This document shows, in pieces, positions 7,691-37,322 of a stretch of DNA of 38,720 nucleotides. Source of the stretch: Cumulibacter manganitolerans (GTDB lineage: Bacteria; Actinomycetota; Actinomycetes; Mycobacteriales; Antricoccaceae); contig NZ_WBKP01000037.1 of NCBI RefSeq assembly GCF_009602465.1, positions 1 through 38,720 on the forward strand, written 5' to 3'. Positions within the stretch are counted from its first letter, which is position 1. Each line of letters starts with the position of its first letter. Made by a program: the position numbers and the translations under genes. Below the pieces are notes generated by a model. The model saw only the letters and a program-made list of their open reading frames with translations, had not been told where the DNA came from and did not search any database.

Positions 7691-7748
7691 TTCTGCGGGG
7701 CAGCCAGTGACGGTATCGGGCCGATAGCGTCGCCGGCTGCCCCGCAGA
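7691..7748. repeat. 58-bp palindromic element, copy 1 (convergent terminator position)
   Basis: A near-complete inverted repeat: arms TCTGCGGGGCAGCC and GGCTGCCCCGCAGA, and an inner palindrome around GGTATCGGGCCGATAGC. It lies between the convergent Ddn-like and Nramp genes, where it could stop transcription from both sides. Two more elements of exactly this length with the same ends and TATCGGGC core occur in the window. Confidence 0.85.
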
Positions 7749-9086: not shown

Positions 9087-9875
9087 ATGAACACCAGCCC
9101 GCTCATGCCTGTCGTCTACCTCGGCCACGGAGCCCCGCCGCTGGCCGACGACGCCGTCTGGACCTCCGAGCTCGCCTCGTGGTCCAAGGACCTCCCCCAC
9201 CCCAAGGCGATCCTCGTCGTCTCGGCGCACTGGGAGGCCGCCCCCGTCACCCTCGGGGCCACCCGCACCGTCCCGCTCACCTACGACTTCTGGGGCTTCC
9301 CGCAGAAGTACTACGAGGTGCAGTACAACGCACCCGGCGCGCCGGCGCTGGCCGCCGAGGTCACCAAGCTGCTCGGCGAGGTCGCGCACGACGAGGCCCG
9401 CGGTCTCGATCACGGTGCGTACGTCCCGCTGGTCGAGATGTACCCCGACGCGGACATCCCGGTGCTGCAGCTGTCGATGCCGACGCTCGCCCCCGCCCAG
9501 CTGTTCGAGCTCGGCCGCAAGCTGGCGCCGCTGCGCGAGCAGGGCGTGCTGATCATGGGCAGTGGCTTCGTCACGCACAACCTGCGGCTGATCCAGTTCG
9601 GGCACGGCGGTCCCGCCGACCAGCGCCCTTCCTGGTCGCTGGACTTCGACGAGTGGACGACGCGCGCGATGGCCTCCGGGGACGTCGACAGCCTGCTCGA
9701 CTTCATGCACAAGGCCCCGGCCGCCCAGCTGGCGCACCCGCGCACCGAGCACTTCGCGCCGATCTTCGTCTCCATGGGCGCGGCGTACGGCGCGGAAGGG
9801 CGCACCTTCCAGGCCGACTCGGTGATCGACGGCTACTGGTACGGCCTGGCGAAGCGGTCCTTCCAGATCGCCTAG
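9087..9875 (+). CDS. Class III extradiol dioxygenase, LigB/DODA family
   Basis: This is a 262-residue member of the LigB superfamily (4,5-DOPA dioxygenase/YgiD-like), non-haem metal enzymes that open catechol-type rings. The metal and catalytic histidines are all recognisable: His14 in YLGHGAPP, His48 in VSAHWEA, His109 in LDHGAYVPL and His222 in TEHFAP. The family segment GSGFVTHNLR is intact. The ATG follows GGGAGG. Length is normal for the family. The true substrate is unknown, since many DODA-like bacterial proteins act on catechols or have unknown roles. No aromatic-pathway partner flanks it, but an AT-rich palindrome in its promoter suggests induction by a small molecule. Confidence 0.92.
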   Translation: MNTSPLMPVVYLGHGAPPLADDAVWTSELASWSKDLPHPKAILVVSAHWEAAPVTLGATRTVPLTYDFWGFPQKYYEVQYNAPGAPALAAEVTKLLGEVAHDEARGLDHGAYVPLVEMYPDADIPVLQLSMPTLAPAQLFELGRKLAPLREQGVLIMGSGFVTHNLRLIQFGHGGPADQRPSWSLDFDEWTTRAMASGDVDSLLDFMHKAPAAQLAHPRTEHFAPIFVSMGAAYGAEGRTFQADSVIDGYWYGLAKRSFQIA

Positions 9876-24532: not shown

Positions 24533-25620
24533 GCGATGTGCTCCAGGAGCGCGGAGCGCACGGCGTCCGGCTGCTCGAGATGCGGCGAGTGGCCGGTATC
24601 GGGAAGGACCAGCTCGCGGTAGCGGCCGCCGGCCGCGGCGTACTTCGCCAGCACGGCGCGGGTCTGGGCGAGCATCGGCTGCGGCGGGACGACGTCCGCC
24701 CCCGGGTACCCGGGGATCAGCCCGGCCTGGCCGAGGACAGCCAGGTCCAGACCTGCGGCGTCGCCGACGATCAGGTCGTTGGCGCCGCGGATCCACAGCA
24801 CCGGCGGCTTCGGCGCGACGTCGACGATGTCGTCCCACCGGCAGTACGTCGGCGCCATCGAGTTGAGGATCCCGCGGGTGCCCGGGGCGAAGCCGGGCCA
24901 GTTGGGGGACGTCGTCGCGTCGCCCGGATAGTGGTCCGGACCGGTGCGGGTGGTGAGCATCGACGCGACCCAGATGTCCTCGTCCGGCCACGGCGTCATA
25001 CGCGGATACACGTACAGCCCGCGCAGCGTCGCGCGCGGCGACGTCATCTCCGGCAGGCCGCCGGTCACCCGGCCGTCCGGGTCCTTCGCGGCCAGCAGCT
25101 CGACGAGCCTCGGGTTCGCGCCACCCCCGCCGGTCCCGGCAGCGTCGGCGAACACCAGCTCGCCGTCCACGCCCTTCGTGCAGCCGTAGCCGTATGGCGA
25201 GACGGGCGCCTGCAGGGTGAGGGTGCGCAGCAGCCCCGGATGGTCGATGGCCAGCCGGGTGACGACCCCGCCGCCCATCGACCAGCCGAAGGCATCCACG
25301 TCGGCCAGCCCGAGGGCCTCGAGCAGGGCGGCGAGGTCGTCGGAGTGGTCGCGCAGCCCGCGCGTCGCGTCGATCGGCGCGGCCTCGGTCTCGCCGTACC
25401 CCCGCAGGTCTGGGGCGATCGGCAGGACGTCGTCCGGCAGGGCCAGCATGAGCCGTTGGAAGAACAGCGACGAGGAGACGTTGCCGTGCACGAGCAGCAG
25501 CGGCCGTCCGCCGCGCTGGCCGGCGCGGGTGAGCACCCGCATCCGTAGCCGGCCGGTGTCGACGTCCGAGGCCTGGATCCCGTCGATGAGGTGGTCGGCC
25601 GCCGCAGGTGTGAGCTCCAT
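24529..25620 (-). CDS. Alpha/beta-hydrolase, 363 aa
   Basis: A hydrolase of the alpha/beta fold with the oxyanion strand LLLVHGNVSSS, the nucleophile elbow FGWSMGGGVV (serine near residue 117), an acid in VLWIRGANDLIVGD and the histidine in LPDTGHSPHLEQP. A long insertion or cap of about 120 residues (YGYGCTKGVDGELVFADAAG onward) separates the elbow from the acid. It lies 52 bases after paaE in the same direction and may extend that transcript, but a TAGCCT hexamer six bases before its ATG suggests its own leaderless promoter. The reaction is unknown; a thioesterase or ring-product hydrolase could fit the phenylacetate setting, which is inference. Confidence 0.88.
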   Translation of the reverse strand: MELTPAAADHLIDGIQASDVDTGRLRMRVLTRAGQRGGRPLLLVHGNVSSSLFFQRLMLALPDDVLPIAPDLRGYGETEAAPIDATRGLRDHSDDLAALLEALGLADVDAFGWSMGGGVVTRLAIDHPGLLRTLTLQAPVSPYGYGCTKGVDGELVFADAAGTGGGGANPRLVELLAAKDPDGRVTGGLPEMTSPRATLRGLYVYPRMTPWPDEDIWVASMLTTRTGPDHYPGDATTSPNWPGFAPGTRGILNSMAPTYCRWDDIVDVAPKPPVLWIRGANDLIVGDAAGLDLAVLGQAGLIPGYPGADVVPPQPMLAQTRAVLAKYAAAGGRYRELVLPDTGHSPHLEQPDAVRSALLEHIA

Positions 25621-25626
25621 GCTCAG

Positions 25627-25632
25627 AGGCTA
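25627..25632 (-). promoter_or_regulatory. -10 hexamer of a leaderless promoter (alpha/beta hydrolase)
   Basis: On the minus strand TAGCCT stands six bases before the ATG, with no ribosome site between. Confidence 0.55.
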
Positions 25633-25672
25633 ACCGGCCGGCCCCGGTCCGTCGATCGAGGCGGCCGGCGGC

Positions 25673-26776
25673 TCAGATGTCGAAGTCGACGGTCACCCGC
25701 TCGGTGATCGGCCGCGACTGGCAGGCGAGCCGGATGCCGCGCTCGACCTCCTCCGGCTCCAGCGCCCAGTTGACCTCCATCTCGACCTCGCCCTCGGTGA
25801 CCTTGCAGCGGCAAGTGCCGCACACGCCGCCGGTGCAGGCGAACGGCACGTCCCCGCGCACCTCCAAGGCGGCATCCAGGATCGAGACGGTGTCCTTCTC
25901 GAGGTCGAACGACGCCTCCCGTCCGCTCAGGATCATGGTGATGTGGCTGAGGTCCTCCGGCGCCACGGTGCTGCCGGTGGCCCGCTGCTTGCGCTCCCGC
26001 GGCTTGTCCTCGACGTGGAACAGCTCGAAGTGCACCTTCTTGGCCTCGACCCCTTGGGCGGTGAGGAAGTCGCGGGCGCCGATCACCATCTCGAAGGGCC
26101 CGCAGACGAACCACTCGTCGACGTCGTCCAGCGGGATCAGCCGCTCGGTGAGCAGGCCGAGCTTCTCGGCGTCGATCCGGCCGTTGAGCAGGTCGACGGC
26201 CTGCGCCTCGCGGCTCAGGACGTTGATGAGCTGGAAGCGGTCGGGGTAGAGGTCCTTCAGATCGGCGAGCTCCTCCAGGAACATCACCGTCGACGTCTTC
26301 TGGTTGCCGTAGACGAGGGTCACCTGCGAGCGCGGCTCGGTCTGCAGGATCGAGGTGACCAGCGACAGGATCGGCGTGATCCCCGAGCCCGCCGCCAGCA
26401 TGACGTAGTTGCGGGCCCGCGTGGGGTCCAGCCGGGTGGTGAAGGTGCCGGCCGGCGGCAGGACGTCGAGCACGTCTCCGACCTGCAGGCGACTGATCGC
26501 GTACGTGGAGAACGCGCCGTCCTCCACGGCCTTGATCGCGACCCGCAGTCGTTTCGAGGCCGGCGAGGCAAAGATCGAGTACGAGCGCCGCACCTCGACG
26601 CCGTCCTCCGATCGGCGCAGCGTGAGGTGCTGCCCAGGCACGAACGCGAACTCGTCGGCCAGCTCCTCGGGCACCGCGAAGGTCACTGCGACGCTGTCGT
26701 CGGTCGGCCGGTCGACGGCGGCGACCGAGAGCTGCCGGAACGTCGTGTGGCCGGGTGTCTGGGTGGGTGCGGTCAT
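25673..26776 (-). CDS. paaE: Phenylacetyl-CoA epoxidase reductase subunit PaaE
   Basis: This 367-residue reductase passes electrons from NAD(P)H to the PaaABC epoxidase. It has a flavin domain (RRSYSIFASPASKRL, an RxYS motif), an NAD domain (MLAAGSGITPILSLV, and VCGPFEMVIGARDFL), and a C-terminal plant-type 2Fe-2S domain with the cysteines in FACTGGVCGTCRCKV and the last in LACQSRP. The domain order is that of PaaE. The ATG has GAGGGA upstream; ten bases separate it from the paaD stop. It is the last gene of the paaABCDE run. Confidence 0.95.
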   Translation of the reverse strand: MTAPTQTPGHTTFRQLSVAAVDRPTDDSVAVTFAVPEELADEFAFVPGQHLTLRRSEDGVEVRRSYSIFASPASKRLRVAIKAVEDGAFSTYAISRLQVGDVLDVLPPAGTFTTRLDPTRARNYVMLAAGSGITPILSLVTSILQTEPRSQVTLVYGNQKTSTVMFLEELADLKDLYPDRFQLINVLSREAQAVDLLNGRIDAEKLGLLTERLIPLDDVDEWFVCGPFEMVIGARDFLTAQGVEAKKVHFELFHVEDKPRERKQRATGSTVAPEDLSHITMILSGREASFDLEKDTVSILDAALEVRGDVPFACTGGVCGTCRCKVTEGEVEMEVNWALEPEEVERGIRLACQSRPITERVTVDFDI

Positions 26777-26786
26777 CGGTGATCCC

Positions 26787-27437
26787 TCATAGCGGTTTGA
26801 ACCAGTCGAACGGCTCACGGCAGGAGTTGCAGCGGTAGAGCGCCTTGCAGGACGTCGATCCGAAGCGCGAGATGACCTCGGTGTCGAACGAGTCGCAGTA
26901 GGGGCAGCGCACGGACAGGCCGACGCTCACGGGTCCCGACGCCGCGGGACGGGTGCCGGTCGGCGGCGTGATGCCCGATCGCTGCAGGGCATTGAGTCCT
27001 CGCGGGGTGATCCAGTCCGTCGTCCACGGCGGATCGAGGACCACGTCGACGGTCACGCTTCCGTATCCCGCGGCCGTGAAGACGCGACGCAGATCCTCCT
27101 CGATCGCTTTCATGGCAGGGCATCCGGAGTATGTCGGGGTGATCGTCACGGTCACCGCGACGCCGTCTACCGACACGTCGCGCAGGATGCCGAGGTCGGC
27201 GATCGACAGCAGCGGGATCTCCGGATCGTTGACGTCGGCGGCGATCTGCCACGGCGTCGCGCCGGCCGGCAGGTCGCGCGGGTGCTTCGGCCGGCTCCGG
27301 TCGAAGTCGGCCGTTGCGGGCCGATCGCCGTACCCGAAGGGATTGCGAGCCTCGACGCCCTCCGCGTCGGGCCGTGCGCCCGCCGTCGGTCGCTCGGGGG
27401 CGGTCCGCTCGCGCTGCTTCGCTGCCACGGCTACCAC
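26787..27437 (-). CDS. paaD: PaaD, Fe-S maturation protein of the phenylacetyl-CoA epoxidase, N-terminally extended
   Basis: PaaD is a DUF59/MIP18-type protein required for epoxidase function, probably for metal or Fe-S assembly. The core begins WQIAADVNDPEIPLLSIADL and has TPTYSGCPAMKAIEEDL, and a C-terminal four-cysteine zinc ribbon (VRCPYCDSFDTEV, then LYRCNSCREPFDWF). The start is unusual: no ATG or GTG lies near the usual beginning of the domain, so the GTG overlapping the paaC stop (after GAGGCGCG) is chosen, adding about 60 basic or proline-rich residues. A GTG three codons later is possible. Overlap with paaC implies translational coupling. Confidence 0.9.
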   Translation of the reverse strand: MVAVAAKQRERTAPERPTAGARPDAEGVEARNPFGYGDRPATADFDRSRPKHPRDLPAGATPWQIAADVNDPEIPLLSIADLGILRDVSVDGVAVTVTITPTYSGCPAMKAIEEDLRRVFTAAGYGSVTVDVVLDPPWTTDWITPRGLNALQRSGITPPTGTRPAASGPVSVGLSVRCPYCDSFDTEVISRFGSTSCKALYRCNSCREPFDWFKPL

Positions 27438-28306
27438 CGCGCCTCGGGGTGCGCCCGGGGGATCGACTGCATCTCGGCGAGCATCCGGTCGAGGCTCGCG
27501 GTGTGCTGCCCCCGGCGTCCGCCGCGGGCGTGCCACTTGGTCTCCGGGACGGTGCAGGTCGCCGTCTCGATGGTCGCCGTCATCTGCTCCAGCCAGGGCG
27601 CGTACAGCGCCTTGGTGTCGACGAAGGTGCCGTCGGCGACCAGCTCGTCGAAGAGCGCGTCCGTCGGGCCGGTCGCGGGCGTGACGCCGGCGTCCGCGTC
27701 GAACAGCTCGGCGACGTACGGCCAGATCCGGTCGAAGCCGGCCTGCATGCGGCGATGCGACTCGTCGGTGCCGTCACCGAGCCGCAGGGCCCACTGCGAG
27801 AAGTGGTCGACGTGGTACGCGACCTCCTTGCTCGACTTCTTCGCGATGGCGGCGATCTGCGGGTCGGTCGACGTCTGCAGCGCGCCGTACAGCAGCTGCT
27901 GGTAGAGCGCGAACGCGAGGTTGCGGGCGACCGTCTCGGCGAAGTCGCCGTTCTCGATCTGCACGATGTGCGCGCACCGGAACTCCGAGCCGCTGCGCCA
28001 GTAGGCCAGGTCGTCCTCGGTCTTCGCCGGCTCCATCAGCGAGCCGGCGTACGCGTAGATCATCCGCGCCTGGCCCAGCAGGTCGAGGCCGGTGTTGGAG
28101 AGGGCGATGTCCTCCTCGAGGACCGGCGCCTTGAAGCTCCACTCGAGGAGCCGCTGCATGAGGATGAGCGCGTCGTCGCCCATCCGCAGCAGGCCGTCGA
28201 TCTTGGCGGGGTACAGCGGCTGGTAGCTCTGCCGCCCGGCCACGCGCGCGGCGATCTCCGCGGGCTTGTCGCCGACGACCACCTGCTGCTCGGGAAGGTC
28301 ACTCAC
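27431..28306 (-). CDS. paaC: Phenylacetyl-CoA epoxidase subunit PaaC
   Basis: This 291-residue subunit is the ferritin-like, non-catalytic structural partner of PaaA. It shows GDDALILMQRLLEWSFKAPV, IALSNTGLDLLGQARMIYAY, ARNLAFALYQQLLYGAL and KSSKEVAYHVDHFSQWALRL, all standard for PaaC. I prefer the GTG eight bases after AAGGAG to an in-frame GTG three codons upstream that would touch this ribosome site. It is separated from paaB by 83 bases that hold a 58-bp palindrome, the one gap in an otherwise tightly packed operon. Confidence 0.95.
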   Translation of the reverse strand: MSDLPEQQVVVGDKPAEIAARVAGRQSYQPLYPAKIDGLLRMGDDALILMQRLLEWSFKAPVLEEDIALSNTGLDLLGQARMIYAYAGSLMEPAKTEDDLAYWRSGSEFRCAHIVQIENGDFAETVARNLAFALYQQLLYGALQTSTDPQIAAIAKKSSKEVAYHVDHFSQWALRLGDGTDESHRRMQAGFDRIWPYVAELFDADAGVTPATGPTDALFDELVADGTFVDTKALYAPWLEQMTATIETATCTVPETKWHARGGRRGQHTASLDRMLAEMQSIPRAHPEARW

Positions 28307-28326
28307 CTTCGTCACTCCTTCTCGCG

Positions 28327-28384
28327 TTCTGCGGTGGAGTAGTGCTCGCTATCGGGCGATTACCGTGCGCTACTCCACCGCAGA
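28327..28384. repeat. 58-bp palindromic element, copy 2, inside the paa operon
   Basis: It has arms TTCTGCGGTGGAGTAG and CTACTCCACCGCAGA and the TATCGGGC core of copies 1 and 3. It almost fills the paaB-paaC gap, leaving the paaC ribosome site free. Compensated arm changes relative to copies 1 and 3 show that base-pairing is kept while sequence varies. Confidence 0.9.
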
Positions 28385-28389
28385 TCGGG

Positions 28390-28710
28390 TTACATGTGGT
28401 CGACTTCAGCGGGGAGCTTGAAGAACGTCGGGTAGCGGAAGATCTTGTCGGCCGCCGGCTCGAAGAACTCGTCCTTCTCCTCCGGCGAGCTGGCCGTGAT
28501 CTGCGCCGAGGGCACGACCCAGATGCTCACGCCCTCCTGGCGGCGGGTGTAGAGGTCGCGCGCCGACTGCAGCGCGAGCGTCGCGTCGGCCGCGTGCAGC
28601 GATCCGACGTGGTTGTGCGACAGGCCGCGACGGCTGCGCACGAAGACCTCCCACAGCGGCCAGCGCTGCGGCGAGTCGTACCCGCCCTCGGGATTGGGCT
28701 GCTCGGTCAT
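28390..28710 (-). CDS. paaB: Phenylacetyl-CoA epoxidase subunit PaaB
   Basis: This 106-residue small subunit bridges PaaAC heterodimers. The pattern [20 protein letters not shown] and [20 protein letters not shown], followed by [19 protein letters not shown], is that of PaaB. Its start overlaps the paaA stop (ATGA), so the two are coupled. A palindromic element follows its stop within six bases, which could weaken transcription of paaC onward. Confidence 0.95.
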
Positions 28711-29702
28711 GCTCGGTCCTTCCGTGAATCAGAGGTCTGCTCGGCGCCGCGCCGGGCGGCCTGCTTCGCGGCGTACGCCGTGGCGGCCTCGCGGACCCAG
28801 CGGCCCTCGTCGTGCGCGCCCTTGCGCACCCGGATGCGTTCGGCGTTGCACGGCCCGTCGCCGGCGAGGATGCGCTTGAACTCGGTCCAGTCGATCTCGC
28901 CGTGGTCGTAGTGCCCGGTCTCGGGGTTCCACCGCAGCTCGGGGTCGGGCAGCGTGACGCCGAGGACGTCGGCTTGCGGGACGGTCATGTCGATGAACTT
29001 CTGCCGCAGCTCGTCGTTCGAGGCGACCTTCACGCCCCAGGCCATGTTCTGCTTGCTGTTGGGGGACTCGTCGTCCGACGGGCCGAACATCATCAGCGCC
29101 GGCCACCACCAGCGGTTGATCGACTCCTGCGCCATCTCCTTCTGCTCCGGGGTGCCGTTGCACAGCGCCAGCAGGATGGAGAACCCCTGCCGCTGGTGGA
29201 ACGACTCCTCCTTGCAGATCCGGATCATCGCGCGGGCGTACGGGCCGTACGACGTCCGGCACAGCGACACCTGGTTGACGATCGCGGCGCCGTCCACCAG
29301 CCAGCCGATGGTGCCGTTGTCGGCCCAGGTCAGCGTCGGGTAGTTGAAGATCGACGAGTACTTCTGCCGGCCGGCGTGCAGCAGGTCGAGCATCTCGTCG
29401 CGGCTCATGCCGAGGGTCTCGGCGGCCGCGTACAGGTACAGGCCGTGCCCGTCCTCGTCCTGCACCTTGGCCAGCAGGATCGCCTTGCGCTCCAGGCTGG
29501 GTGCGCGGGTCAGCCAGTTGCCCTCGGGCTGCATGCCGATGATCTCCGAGTGCGCGTGCTGCGCGATCTGCCGGATCAGCGTCTTGCGGTAGCCCTCCGG
29601 CATCCAGTCCCGCGGCTCGATCTTCTCGCCGGCAGCGATCGTGGCGTCGAAGTGGGCCTGCTGCTCCTCGGTGAGGTGCATGGGTTCGTGGACGGCTGTC
29701 AT
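28707..29702 (-). CDS. paaA: Phenylacetyl-CoA epoxidase catalytic subunit PaaA
   Basis: This 331-residue di-iron monooxygenase subunit epoxidises the ring of phenylacetyl-CoA. The ferritin-like core has the expected segments: [35 protein letters not shown] (an acid-histidine iron ligand pair), and [16 protein letters not shown] (the second), as well as [15 protein letters not shown]. The ATG has AAGGAGA eight bases upstream. The PaaR-type palindrome lies 19-34 bases before the start, so it is the first gene of the operon and is probably repressed without phenylacetyl-CoA. Confidence 0.96.
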
Positions 29703-29720
29703 GGTCGTCTCCTTAACCGC

Positions 29721-29736
29721 CCGACCGTTCGGTCGG
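29721..29736. promoter_or_regulatory. PaaR-type operator, site 2
   Basis: CCGACCG-TT-CGGTCGG lies immediately upstream of the paaA ribosome site. It is identical at all 16 positions to the inner part of the site before the TetR gene near paaK. Confidence 0.85.
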
Positions 29737-29819
29737 TTTGGACCAGCGTAGGTAGCCGACACCGAGTTGTCCAGGGGTAGCGCGGATTCTCCGAAAACCC
29801 GCGCGTGAGCCCGCCCGCT

Positions 29820-29890
29820 CCGGAGAACGACGCGCAGGAGGCCCGCTGTCCACTCGGGGTGGACAGCGGGCCTCCTGGGTGACGTTATGG
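29820..29890. repeat. 71-bp palindromic element, copy A
   Basis: CCGGAGAACG at one end and CGTTATGG at the other enclose perfect arms AGGAGGCCCGCTGTCCAC and GTGGACAGCGGGCCTCCT. A related 73-bp element lies near 37.3 kb. Just upstream (about 29787) the words TTCTCCGAAAAC and CGCGCGTG repeat its outer end. It sits between the cupin gene and the paa promoter, so it may also act as terminator for the cupin gene. The rest of the 276-base gap holds the PaaR operator and nothing else I can name. Confidence 0.85.
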
Positions 29891-29978
29891 CGAGCAGCCC
29901 CGGCGAGCTCGCCCGCCGCCGGGCGGTGCGCCGCGGCCGCCGGGCGGTGCGCCCGCTGCCGGGCGGCCGGGTGCCGGG

Positions 29979-30374
29979 CTACTGGGCGGCGGCGGGACCG
30001 TCGACGTTGATCGTCGGGGTGCCGGTGCCGCAACGCACGAGGACGGCGCGGGATGTCGAGTCGCCCGGGTTGGACTCGCGGTGGATCGCGCCGGCCGGCA
30101 CGCGGATGAAGTCGCCGGGACCGGCTTCGACGACGGTCTCGCCGCCGGGGCCCGACTCGAGGCGCATGTGGCCGGAGACTACGTAGATGGTGGTGTCGTG
30201 GTCGCCGTGGTGGTGCCAGCCCGAGACGGCGCCGCCCTCGGTGTCGACGGTGCCCGACCACATCGTCTCGGTGCTCAGCGCCATCTGGCGGCTCATGCCG
30301 GGGGTGGGGTCGCTGGCCTGCAGCTGGTCGGCGGGCACCATGGAGCAGGGCAGGGCTGGGTCGTGCTCGGCCAT
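29979..30374 (-). CDS. Cupin-domain protein, 131 aa
   Basis: This single-cupin beta-barrel protein has the motif-1 histidines and acid in SGWHHHGDHDTTIYVVSGHM and the second motif in GPGDFIRVPAGAIHRESNP, so it probably binds a divalent metal. The ATG follows GAGG with spacing of eight. Candidates range from a dioxygenase to a sugar or hormone-binding protein; small cupins of this type are functionally unassigned. It is the same strand as paa but separated by 276 bases with a palindrome and the PaaR operator, so it is probably a separate unit. Confidence 0.9.
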   Translation of the reverse strand: MAEHDPALPCSMVPADQLQASDPTPGMSRQMALSTETMWSGTVDTEGGAVSGWHHHGDHDTTIYVVSGHMRLESGPGGETVVEAGPGDFIRVPAGAIHRESNPGDSTSRAVLVRCGTGTPTINVDGPAAAQ

Positions 30375-30444
30375 CGGAGGACCTCGATTCGCTGGCTGAT
30401 CGGCGGACGGCTGCTTGTCAGCCTACGGTCCCCGATCCCGGCCC

Positions 30445-33993: not shown

Positions 33994-34051
33994 TTCTGCG
34001 GGGCAGCCAGGCACGCTATCGGGCGGTGAGCGTGTCCCGCAGCCCCGCAGA
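33994..34051. repeat. 58-bp palindromic element, copy 3 (convergent terminator position)
   Basis: It opens TTCTGCGGGGCAGCC and closes GCAGCCCCGCAGA, with the shared core TATCGGGC. It lies between the convergent P450 and metallo-beta-lactamase-like genes and fits a shared terminator. The outer arm bases match copy 1 but the inner stem is less perfect. Confidence 0.85.
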
Positions 34052-37249: not shown

Positions 37250-37322
37250 CCGGAAAACGCCGCGCTGGGGGCCGGCTGTCCATCCGCAGTGGACAGCGGA
37301 CCTCCAGCGTGACGATTTCCGG
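37250..37322. repeat. 73-bp palindromic element, copy B
   Basis: It runs from CCGGAAAACG to CGATTTCCGG, with inner arms GGCTGTCCA and TGGACAGC. It is clearly the same type as the 71-bp element upstream of paaA, including the shared GCTGTCCA/TGGACAGCGG stem and outer CCGGA ends, but with many compensated changes. Confidence 0.85.

Follow-up and report, generated by a model that had tools for sequence, protein, structure and literature searches.

The closest described counterparts of the repeat considered here are the REPs, short intergenic palindromes present in many copies, which measure 20-40 bp (PMC3733652) and carry a GTAG foot in the REP/RAYT systems. Their dedicated enzyme, the RAYT, is a Y1/HUH tyrosine transposase, and PMC2817692 describes repeats and enzyme as mutually specific. 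A second group, the CGTC-tagged REPs, appears in PMC3733652 as dispersed palindromes without a known mobilising enzyme. Single features are also shared with classical MITEs, with the Vsr-like homing endonuclease I-Bth0305I, which has one homing site, and with the AbiEi antitoxins of type IV toxin-antitoxin systems. AbiEi antitoxins bind inverted repeats at their own promoter.

The window, i.e., the whole stretch of 38,720 nucleotides of Cumulibacter manganitolerans analysed here, contains a palindromic element between paaB and paaC which is probably a solitary member of a family of scattered palindromes of fixed length, one that belongs to an AbiEi-Vsr nuclease system of REP/RAYT-like organisation. 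A spreading repeat rather than a switch built for the operon is indicated by the scattered copies, by the nearest relatives of the element, which flank a nuclease gene, and by the matched palindromes around nucleases elsewhere. No description of AbiEi or DUF559 nucleases with palindromes was found in the open-access literature (PubMed Central, preprints excluded).

The element in the paaB-paaC joint

The features of the locus, together with two further copies of the repeat in the window, are as follows.

7692..7748, no strand assigned: second 57-bp copy, lying 10 and 14 bp from the called ends of two convergent genes
25673..26776, minus strand: paaE (TIGR02160, 463.8 bits, cut-off 420.8)
26787..27437, minus strand: paaD (TIGR02159, 191.6 bits, cut-off 108.15)
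27431..28315, likely start GTG 28306, minus strand: paaC, downstream operon neighbour of the element (TIGR02158, 251.8 bits, cut-off 133.35)
28328..28384, no strand assigned: 57-bp palindromic element in the paaB-paaC joint, C65-nuclease subfamily (folding, repeat matches)
28390..28710, minus strand: paaB, upstream operon neighbour of the element (TIGR02157, 139.5 bits, cut-off 85.45)
28707..29702, minus strand: paaA (TIGR02156, by the same NCBIfam test, 510.5 bits, cut-off 280)
33995..34051, no strand assigned: third 57-bp copy, lying 7 and 10 bp from the called ends of two convergent genes

The five genes are those of PaaA-E, each scoring above the cut-off of its NCBIfam model. As called by codon score, paaA and paaB overlap by 4 bp, paaC and paaD overlap by 7 bp, and paaD and paaE are 10 bp apart, in agreement with the sequence-only reading, which had described all joints other than paaB-paaC as overlapping or about 10 bases long. 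The gene caller leaves 74 bp between paaB and paaC; the likely start of paaC is the GTG at 28306, with AAGGAG (28320-28315) 8 bases upstream, and the 83-base gap claimed earlier, mostly filled by the element, holds if paaC starts there.

The palindrome itself is real: it begins with TCTGCGG, ends with CCGCAGA and is nearly perfect over 57 bp, its left end lying one base inside the 28327 first assigned to it and its right end being identical. The folding energy of the transcribed (minus) strand is -36.5 kcal/mol, and its shuffles average -15.7 (z -8.0; 0 of 200 shuffles); in a 121-nt context on the plus strand the folding z is -4.9. The stem is very stable, and its distance from the paaB stop codon is 5 bases, close to the six that had been given. 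A terminator scan of 25600-30400 returned 0 intrinsic terminators (shuffles average 1.1), no T run or U-tract follows the stem on the paa strand, and an Rfam scan of the whole window at gathering thresholds detected only an ALIL pseudoknot (1756-1884), with no family for the paa element.

The joint was compared among relatives, namely the window's own genome (G000, a draft of 3.9 Mb in 136 contigs), two further genomes of the same genus (G001 and G002) and two other members of the family (G003 and G004). In G003 and G004 the paaB stop and the paaC start overlap by one base and the element is absent, so that the element looks like an addition, the possibility that the sequence-only reading had raised. 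The congener G002 carries an element in this joint with different arms and at 43 bases past the paaB stop instead of 5, and G001 gave no paaC match. Conservation of the element at this joint in distant relatives, as would befit a part of the ancestral operon, was not found in the relatives compared. The paa copy is most simply a tolerated insertion, an added element which would have landed in a formerly overlapping joint, and it may have a side effect on operon mRNA stability or on the coupling of PaaB and PaaC.

The sequence-only reading had proposed an attenuator or mRNA protector that sets the ratio of PaaAB to PaaCDE. A very stable stem 5 bases after paaB and the presence of an element in the same joint of G002 would suit such a dedicated device; copies of the repeat, however, also surround nuclease genes and stand at tens of unrelated gene ends, a U-tract is missing, the offset and arms differ in G002, and G003 and G004 lack the element altogether, so that this explanation is now extremely improbable. 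As a paa-specific attenuator or intrinsic terminator the element was rejected, with 0 terminator-like sites in 25600-30400 and no T run at the paa copy.

A dispersed palindromic repeat of fixed length

A BLAST search of the window's own genome with the paa element returned many relatives, three copies lying in the window itself. The pattern TCTGCGG-N43-CCGCAGA occurs at 41 places in G000, 13 in G001, 10 in G002, 14 in G004 and 0 in G003, and the reversed-pattern control at 0 in all five. With two mismatches allowed, G000 gave 115 places against 59 for the reversed control, and such loose matches are thus mixed with chance. When the gap was left free from 25 to 55 bases (31 lengths), 41 of the 42 matches in G000 were 57 bp long, the remaining one of 42 bp not being element-like; the reversed control matched 3 times in G000 and 2 times in G004, and G001 showed more indel variants. 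A length spectrum from 35 to 79 bp over 81 loci (1.35 Mb, overlapping loci counted twice) comprised 96 elements at 57 bp, 4 at 58 bp and no more than 2 at each remaining length. When TA was also required at positions 23-24 and 34-35, this stricter pattern was found in 4 of 397 genomes of the order, all four within the family of the window, and a covariance model found members in those four genomes and none in G003 (both strands counted; best 150 candidates or fewer per genome). A scan of genome contigs with the TA-refined pattern yielded a single AT-rich chance match.

The two arms of the repeat pair with each other. In an alignment of 74 of the 78 exact-end copies, from which one G002 copy and three G004 copies were left out, 88.3% of the cells over 25 pairs form standard pairs, compared with 34-46% for slid partners, and double-changed cells number 297 against 119 in shuffles; the seven outer pairs are invariant because the copies were selected by them. 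As far as the letters go, the pairing arms are equally compatible with a hairpin and with a two-fold-symmetric protein site. Within the subfamily of the C65 nuclease (24 rows) covariation is mixed: the pairs 8/50, 10/48 and 17/41 switch, and 16/42 is unpaired in 12 of 24 rows. Some of these rows appear to combine arms from two subfamilies, and in G000 C19:50204, C31:26390 and C17:35446 an arm of one subfamily seems, by eye, to be joined to that of another. A subfamily B of G000 (L055:13874, L063:14383, L081:6247 and L135:2561) has the same 57-bp geometry with different ends (nnnGCGGTGGGTT...), its copies being nearest to the C48 nuclease palindromes.

The bases outside the element were analysed for class A elements with 13 or 14 matching end bases. 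Position -1 is A or T in 96%, position -2 is G in 58% and position -3 is C in 53%, so that the feet tend to CGW, and the two sides at -1 pair in 53%, no more than expected by A/T chance. For the same class, target-site duplications of 2 to 8 bp numbered 0 (n=93; the chance expectation is only 1.7 even at 2 bp). This bears directly on a classical MITE, a miniature DDE-type insertion-sequence derivative with terminal inverted repeats and without relation to a nuclease: like MITEs, the element is small, non-autonomous, non-coding and dispersed, has inverted-repeat ends and is polymorphic for presence or absence, but it is palindromic almost throughout, and the gene between paired copies is a nuclease at 7 loci, without a match to a transposase family in Pfam or NCBIfam. 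A MITE with target-site duplication was accordingly rejected (0/93 at 2-8 bp), and descent from a DDE-type insertion sequence is very unlikely overall. The missing target-site duplications also count against mobilisation by the nuclease described below, as does the fact that no precise empty site was resolved.

Presence and absence differ between relatives at other joints too. Among 91 pairs of orthologous joints in the fetched loci, which are not independent, since some joints enter several pairs, and which come from loci that are not random, an element is present in 15, on both sides of the comparison in 4 and in a single genome in 11, which is a sign of mobility.

Position relative to genes

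Most elements lie outside genes (102 of the 112 in the fetched loci, which were chosen for holding elements and annotated with the codon-score caller). The distance from a stop codon to the element has a median of 18.5 bp, with 65 of 90 at 30 bp or less, and that from the element to a start codon has a median of 55.5 bp, with 16 of 56 at 30 bp or less. The 102 non-overlapping elements are distributed over 45 convergent, 45 codirectional and 11 divergent joints, one being undecided; the background of all 1131 joints comprises 209 convergent, 717 codirectional and 205 divergent ones, and that of the 726 joints of at least 40 bp comprises 148, 381 and 197, respectively. At least six T among the next 10 bases follow 3 of 224 element sides (1.3%), compared with 0.14% of background stretches.

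This position raises the question whether the repeat is a 3'-end hairpin owned by the host and kept by selection at gene ends, either as a clade-specific terminator or as a stem that stabilises mRNA. Such a hairpin would account for the short distances from stop codons, the enrichment in convergent joints, the T-rich tails that are rare yet above background, the four pairs of orthologous joints that are occupied in both genomes, and the 57-bp elements that follow the tmRNA gene of G000 and that of G001. The latter lie at 9 and 123 bp from it, with differing arms (L058:9106-9162, tmRNA 9172-9542, minus strand; L099:9103-9159, tmRNA 9283-9653, minus strand). Against it stand the U-tract absent at the paa copy and almost never seen elsewhere, the two relatives without an element at the paa joint, and the matched pairs around one nuclease family, which it leaves unexplained; the same placement would, moreover, be expected from insertion tolerated mainly after stop codons. 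We therefore regard a host-owned hairpin as unlikely, and prefer a spreading repeat.

A nuclease gene between matched palindromes

Two copies of the repeat stand 1112 bp apart with equal spacing in G000 and G001, beside what we take to be the same CoA-transferase gene, and a gene for a protein of about 335 amino acids lies between them. The family contains 7 close homologues of this nuclease (one in G001, two in G000 and four in G004), and 7 of 7 have palindromes in the 57-bp register on both sides. One of the 14 copies, the left one at L135 (G000 C48), is degenerate; this copy and the right copy at L136 were detected only in the 59-bp window of the screen.

The two copies of a locus resemble each other, differing at 3, 3, 7, 8, 15, 3 and 5 of 57 positions, and copies of different loci differ at 13 or more of 57 (median 26). 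L135 is the sole locus whose pair is not mutually closest, since its copies differ at 15 positions and one of them is nearer to the palindrome of another locus (13). Each nuclease thus has largely its own palindrome arms. Across the 7 loci, nuclease distance and palindrome distance are weakly correlated (Mantel r 0.41, p 0.043).

Between the paa element and the palindromes of the C65 nuclease of G000 only 3 of 57 positions differ, the next nearest palindrome being 18 of 57 away, and the two best BLAST matches of the element in the genome after itself are these two C65 palindromes. The C65 nuclease was aligned over 290 of 337 residues and its reading frame continues into the palindrome; this copy of the gene may for these reasons be broken. 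For the other copies, nearest palindromes were counted without the nuclease-linked palindromes and one class-B match inside a gene (G000 C17:40056), and the same-genome count also omits G002. For 25 of the 58 solitary copies of G000 the nearest nuclease palindrome is one from a different genome, and in G000, G001 and G004 together it belongs to the same genome for 47 of 86 copies (permuted mean 37.9, maximum 51), so that many solitary copies are orphans without a cognate nuclease in their genome.

At L138, whose gene is an eighth but weak homologue (E 3e-7), there is no element. Several observations in the family count against the proposed explanation, among them the orphan copies, the pair at L135 and the weak Mantel correlation. 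G002 gave no nuclease match, though elements are present, and at the corresponding locus a different gene is enclosed by elements, one of which is degenerate; in G003 a single distant homologue (E 5e-12) was detected, with 0 exact-end elements in that genome.

The AbiEi-Vsr protein

An AlphaFold2 model of the nuclease (7-row alignment; pLDDT 84.9, pTM 0.82) was compared with known structures by VIA-align. Residues 54-197 resemble the AbiEi antitoxin 6y8q (Z 11.0, 3.3 A, 127 residues), residues 200-309 resemble Vsr 1cw0 (Z 10.4, 2.3 A, 101 residues), and residues 203-308 resemble I-Bth0305I 3r3p (Z 10.4, 2.5 A, 95 residues), RAP-type and mitoribosomal chains being next best for the nuclease domain (Z 9.6-9.8). 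A Foldseek search with the model gave no PDB match at E 1e-3 or better. Among the Pfam families, searched at E up to 1, DUF2726 matched 7 of 7 proteins, DUF559 matched 6 of 7, and AbiEi_1, AbiEi_4 and MTES_1575 matched 2 of 7 each; the AbiEi models of PADLOC matched 6 of 7, and NCBIfam at E up to 0.01 gave no match. At these thresholds neither Pfam nor NCBIfam matched a transposase family, and no Y1 (HUH) transposase was among the matches of Pfam and PADLOC, the fold being AbiEi plus Vsr instead. By its predicted structure the protein is an AbiEi-like part fused to a Vsr-like PD-(D/E)XK endonuclease domain. The residues E238, D240, D243, E251, D253, H256, H257, D266 and K269 are invariant in 7 of 7 proteins, and the acidic and histidine residues among them presumably have the catalytic roles of the Vsr-like domain.

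The AbiEi-like fold, together with the binding of AbiEi antitoxins to inverted repeats at their promoter, would allow the palindromes to be operators for AbiEi-type autoregulation which were copied along with the gene. Such sites do not fit palindromes that border the gene on either side and also stand at tens of unrelated gene ends, nor do they fit the divergent joints, where promoters meet and which hold only 11 of 102 elements; a purely regulatory origin therefore has only a slim chance of being correct.

Homologues in other actinobacteria

A profile of the nuclease detected a homologue at E 1e-10 or better in 119 of 200 genomes of the order, and some genomes have at least 10 (all 10 scored candidates match). 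The best-scoring locus of each of 27 genomes outside the family was compared with 198 control genes from 20 of those genomes, homologue flanks being measured from the ends of the homology match and control flanks from called gene ends. A flank similarity of at least 20 was reached by 17 of 27 homologue loci against 3 of 198 controls (Fisher p 6e-16), and one of at least 25 by 13 of 27 against 0 of 198, so that the nuclease-palindrome association extends beyond the family of the window. In an extra control, 4 of 621 genes scored at least 20, one being a nuclease and one the gene between two G002 elements, and another nuclease scored 17, its called end running into its own palindrome. The matched flanks are mostly palindromes, of 24 to 64 bp in a single scan of the upstream side. 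Three results weigh against the proposed explanation: 10 of the 27 loci stay below the threshold for a matched flank, the long inverted repeats at L144 and L145 are not palindromic, and palindrome length varies from 24 to 66 bp overall and is not always 57.

A second line of evidence started from a palindrome pattern alone. In another family (12 genomes), the pattern CGAGTGGCCA-N{25,50}-TGGCCACTCG occurs at 11 places in 4 genomes, all 57 bp long, with 0 for the reversed control. Five of the 10 opened places adjoin AbiEi-Vsr homologues (three nuclease genes), and the pair in G035 flanks a nuclease that was absent from the building of the pattern. A second palindrome type of the same family, 62-66 bp long with variable arms (CGCCGAGCGTG...CACRCTCGGCG; L189-L195 in G010, G043, G094, G035 and G101), lies beside AbiEi-Vsr homologues at 2 of 7 opened places.

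In Tsukamurella tyrosinosolvens NCTC13231 the DUF559 protein WP_170181047.1 is encoded between two 64-bp palindromes, a sequence found at 20 places in 8 records (both strands can count; query included), and the three solitary copies opened all lie between convergent genes. In Arthrobacter sp. StoSoilB13 a perfect 57-bp palindrome lies upstream of the nuclease gene, and the downstream side shows only a partial match. The family nuclease P0001 has no homologue in plasmid records at E 1e-8 or in phage records at E 1e-3. The other-family nuclease of L152 matched 3 records of the plasmid collection and 0 phage records; one of these matches, from Nonomuraea (L207), has no matched flank, and another is the Arthrobacter locus just described.

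Proposed mechanism and comparison with known systems

The matched pairs and the fold of the enzyme, read together, suggest that the nuclease mobilises its palindrome. By analogy with REP/RAYT, and judging from fold and anatomy, the AbiEi-like part would read the cognate palindrome, the nuclease binding as a symmetric complex, and the Vsr-like part would cut DNA. Repair or copying could then spread the palindrome, alone or with the nuclease gene, insertion presumably being tolerated mainly just after stop codons; one copy would have landed between paaB and paaC, where it split an overlapping joint.

The system is like REP/RAYT in its short intergenic palindromes in many copies (41 with exact ends in G000; 102 of 112 outside genes), in a dedicated gene enclosed by a matched pair (7 of 7 close homologues of the nuclease) and in the specificity of repeats and enzyme for each other, a parallel that draws for the RAYT side on PMC2817692. 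Unlike the RAYT, a Y1/HUH tyrosine transposase, the enzyme here is an AbiEi-Vsr-like nuclease, the palindrome is nearly perfect over 57 bp compared with the 20-40 bp given for REPs in PMC3733652, GTAG or CTAC lies within 8 nt in only 6 of 224 feet, and the present repeats were found in Actinomycetota. Since neither of two defining features, the enzyme class and the GTAG foot, is shared, the system is set apart from REP/RAYT; if any dispersed palindrome with a dedicated enzyme counts as one kind, it is a variant thereof. From the CGTC-tagged REPs, as PMC3733652 presents them, it differs in the linked enzyme family and the longer palindrome; CGTC or GACG lies within 8 nt in 28 of 224 feet here, a raw count that leaves room for a CGTC tag. 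The nuclease domain shares its fold with I-Bth0305I, from which the protein is distinguished by its N-terminal AbiEi-like part and the system by palindromes scattered over many sites in place of a single homing site. The likeness to the AbiEi antitoxin is likewise that of a part, which is fused here to a nuclease domain.

For Actinomycetota at large, we consider the chances about evenly balanced that these bacteria carry mobile palindromes which form a class unrelated to REP/RAYT and depend on an AbiEi-Vsr fusion nuclease, the enzyme recognising a cognate symmetric palindrome, often of exactly 57 bp, and driving its copying. If this were true, many DUF559/MTES_1575 proteins would be enzymes of selfish repeats, each with species-specific palindromes at gene ends, and through the link to palindromes a large protein group of so far unassigned function gains a role that can be tested. 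Short repeats would then be spread by an endonuclease as well as by the tyrosine transposase (RAYT), and scattered hairpins at actinobacterial gene ends, the paa copy included, would be accounted for.

Other elements in the window and its relatives

A different palindrome family, GGAGGCCCGCTGTCCAC...GTGGACAGCGGGCCTCC, is present in the window at 29828-29884 and 37258-37314, as well as at L051:5682 and L052:5579. Some of its copies are bordered by ccggaaaa and tttccgg and resemble bidirectional terminators, and one copy lies upstream of paaA, between paaA and the next gene. The ALIL frameshift pseudoknot at 1756-1884 (Rfam RF01497, 79.5 bits) coincides with two overlapping open reading frames on the minus strand (940-2016 and 1842-2189), which together probably represent an IS3-type insertion sequence. 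In G001, the stretch C6:76930-76996 holds an element enclosed by a smaller palindrome of identical ends (TCTGCGGTGAT ... ATCACCGCAGA), an arrangement that resembles insertion at the centre of another copy.
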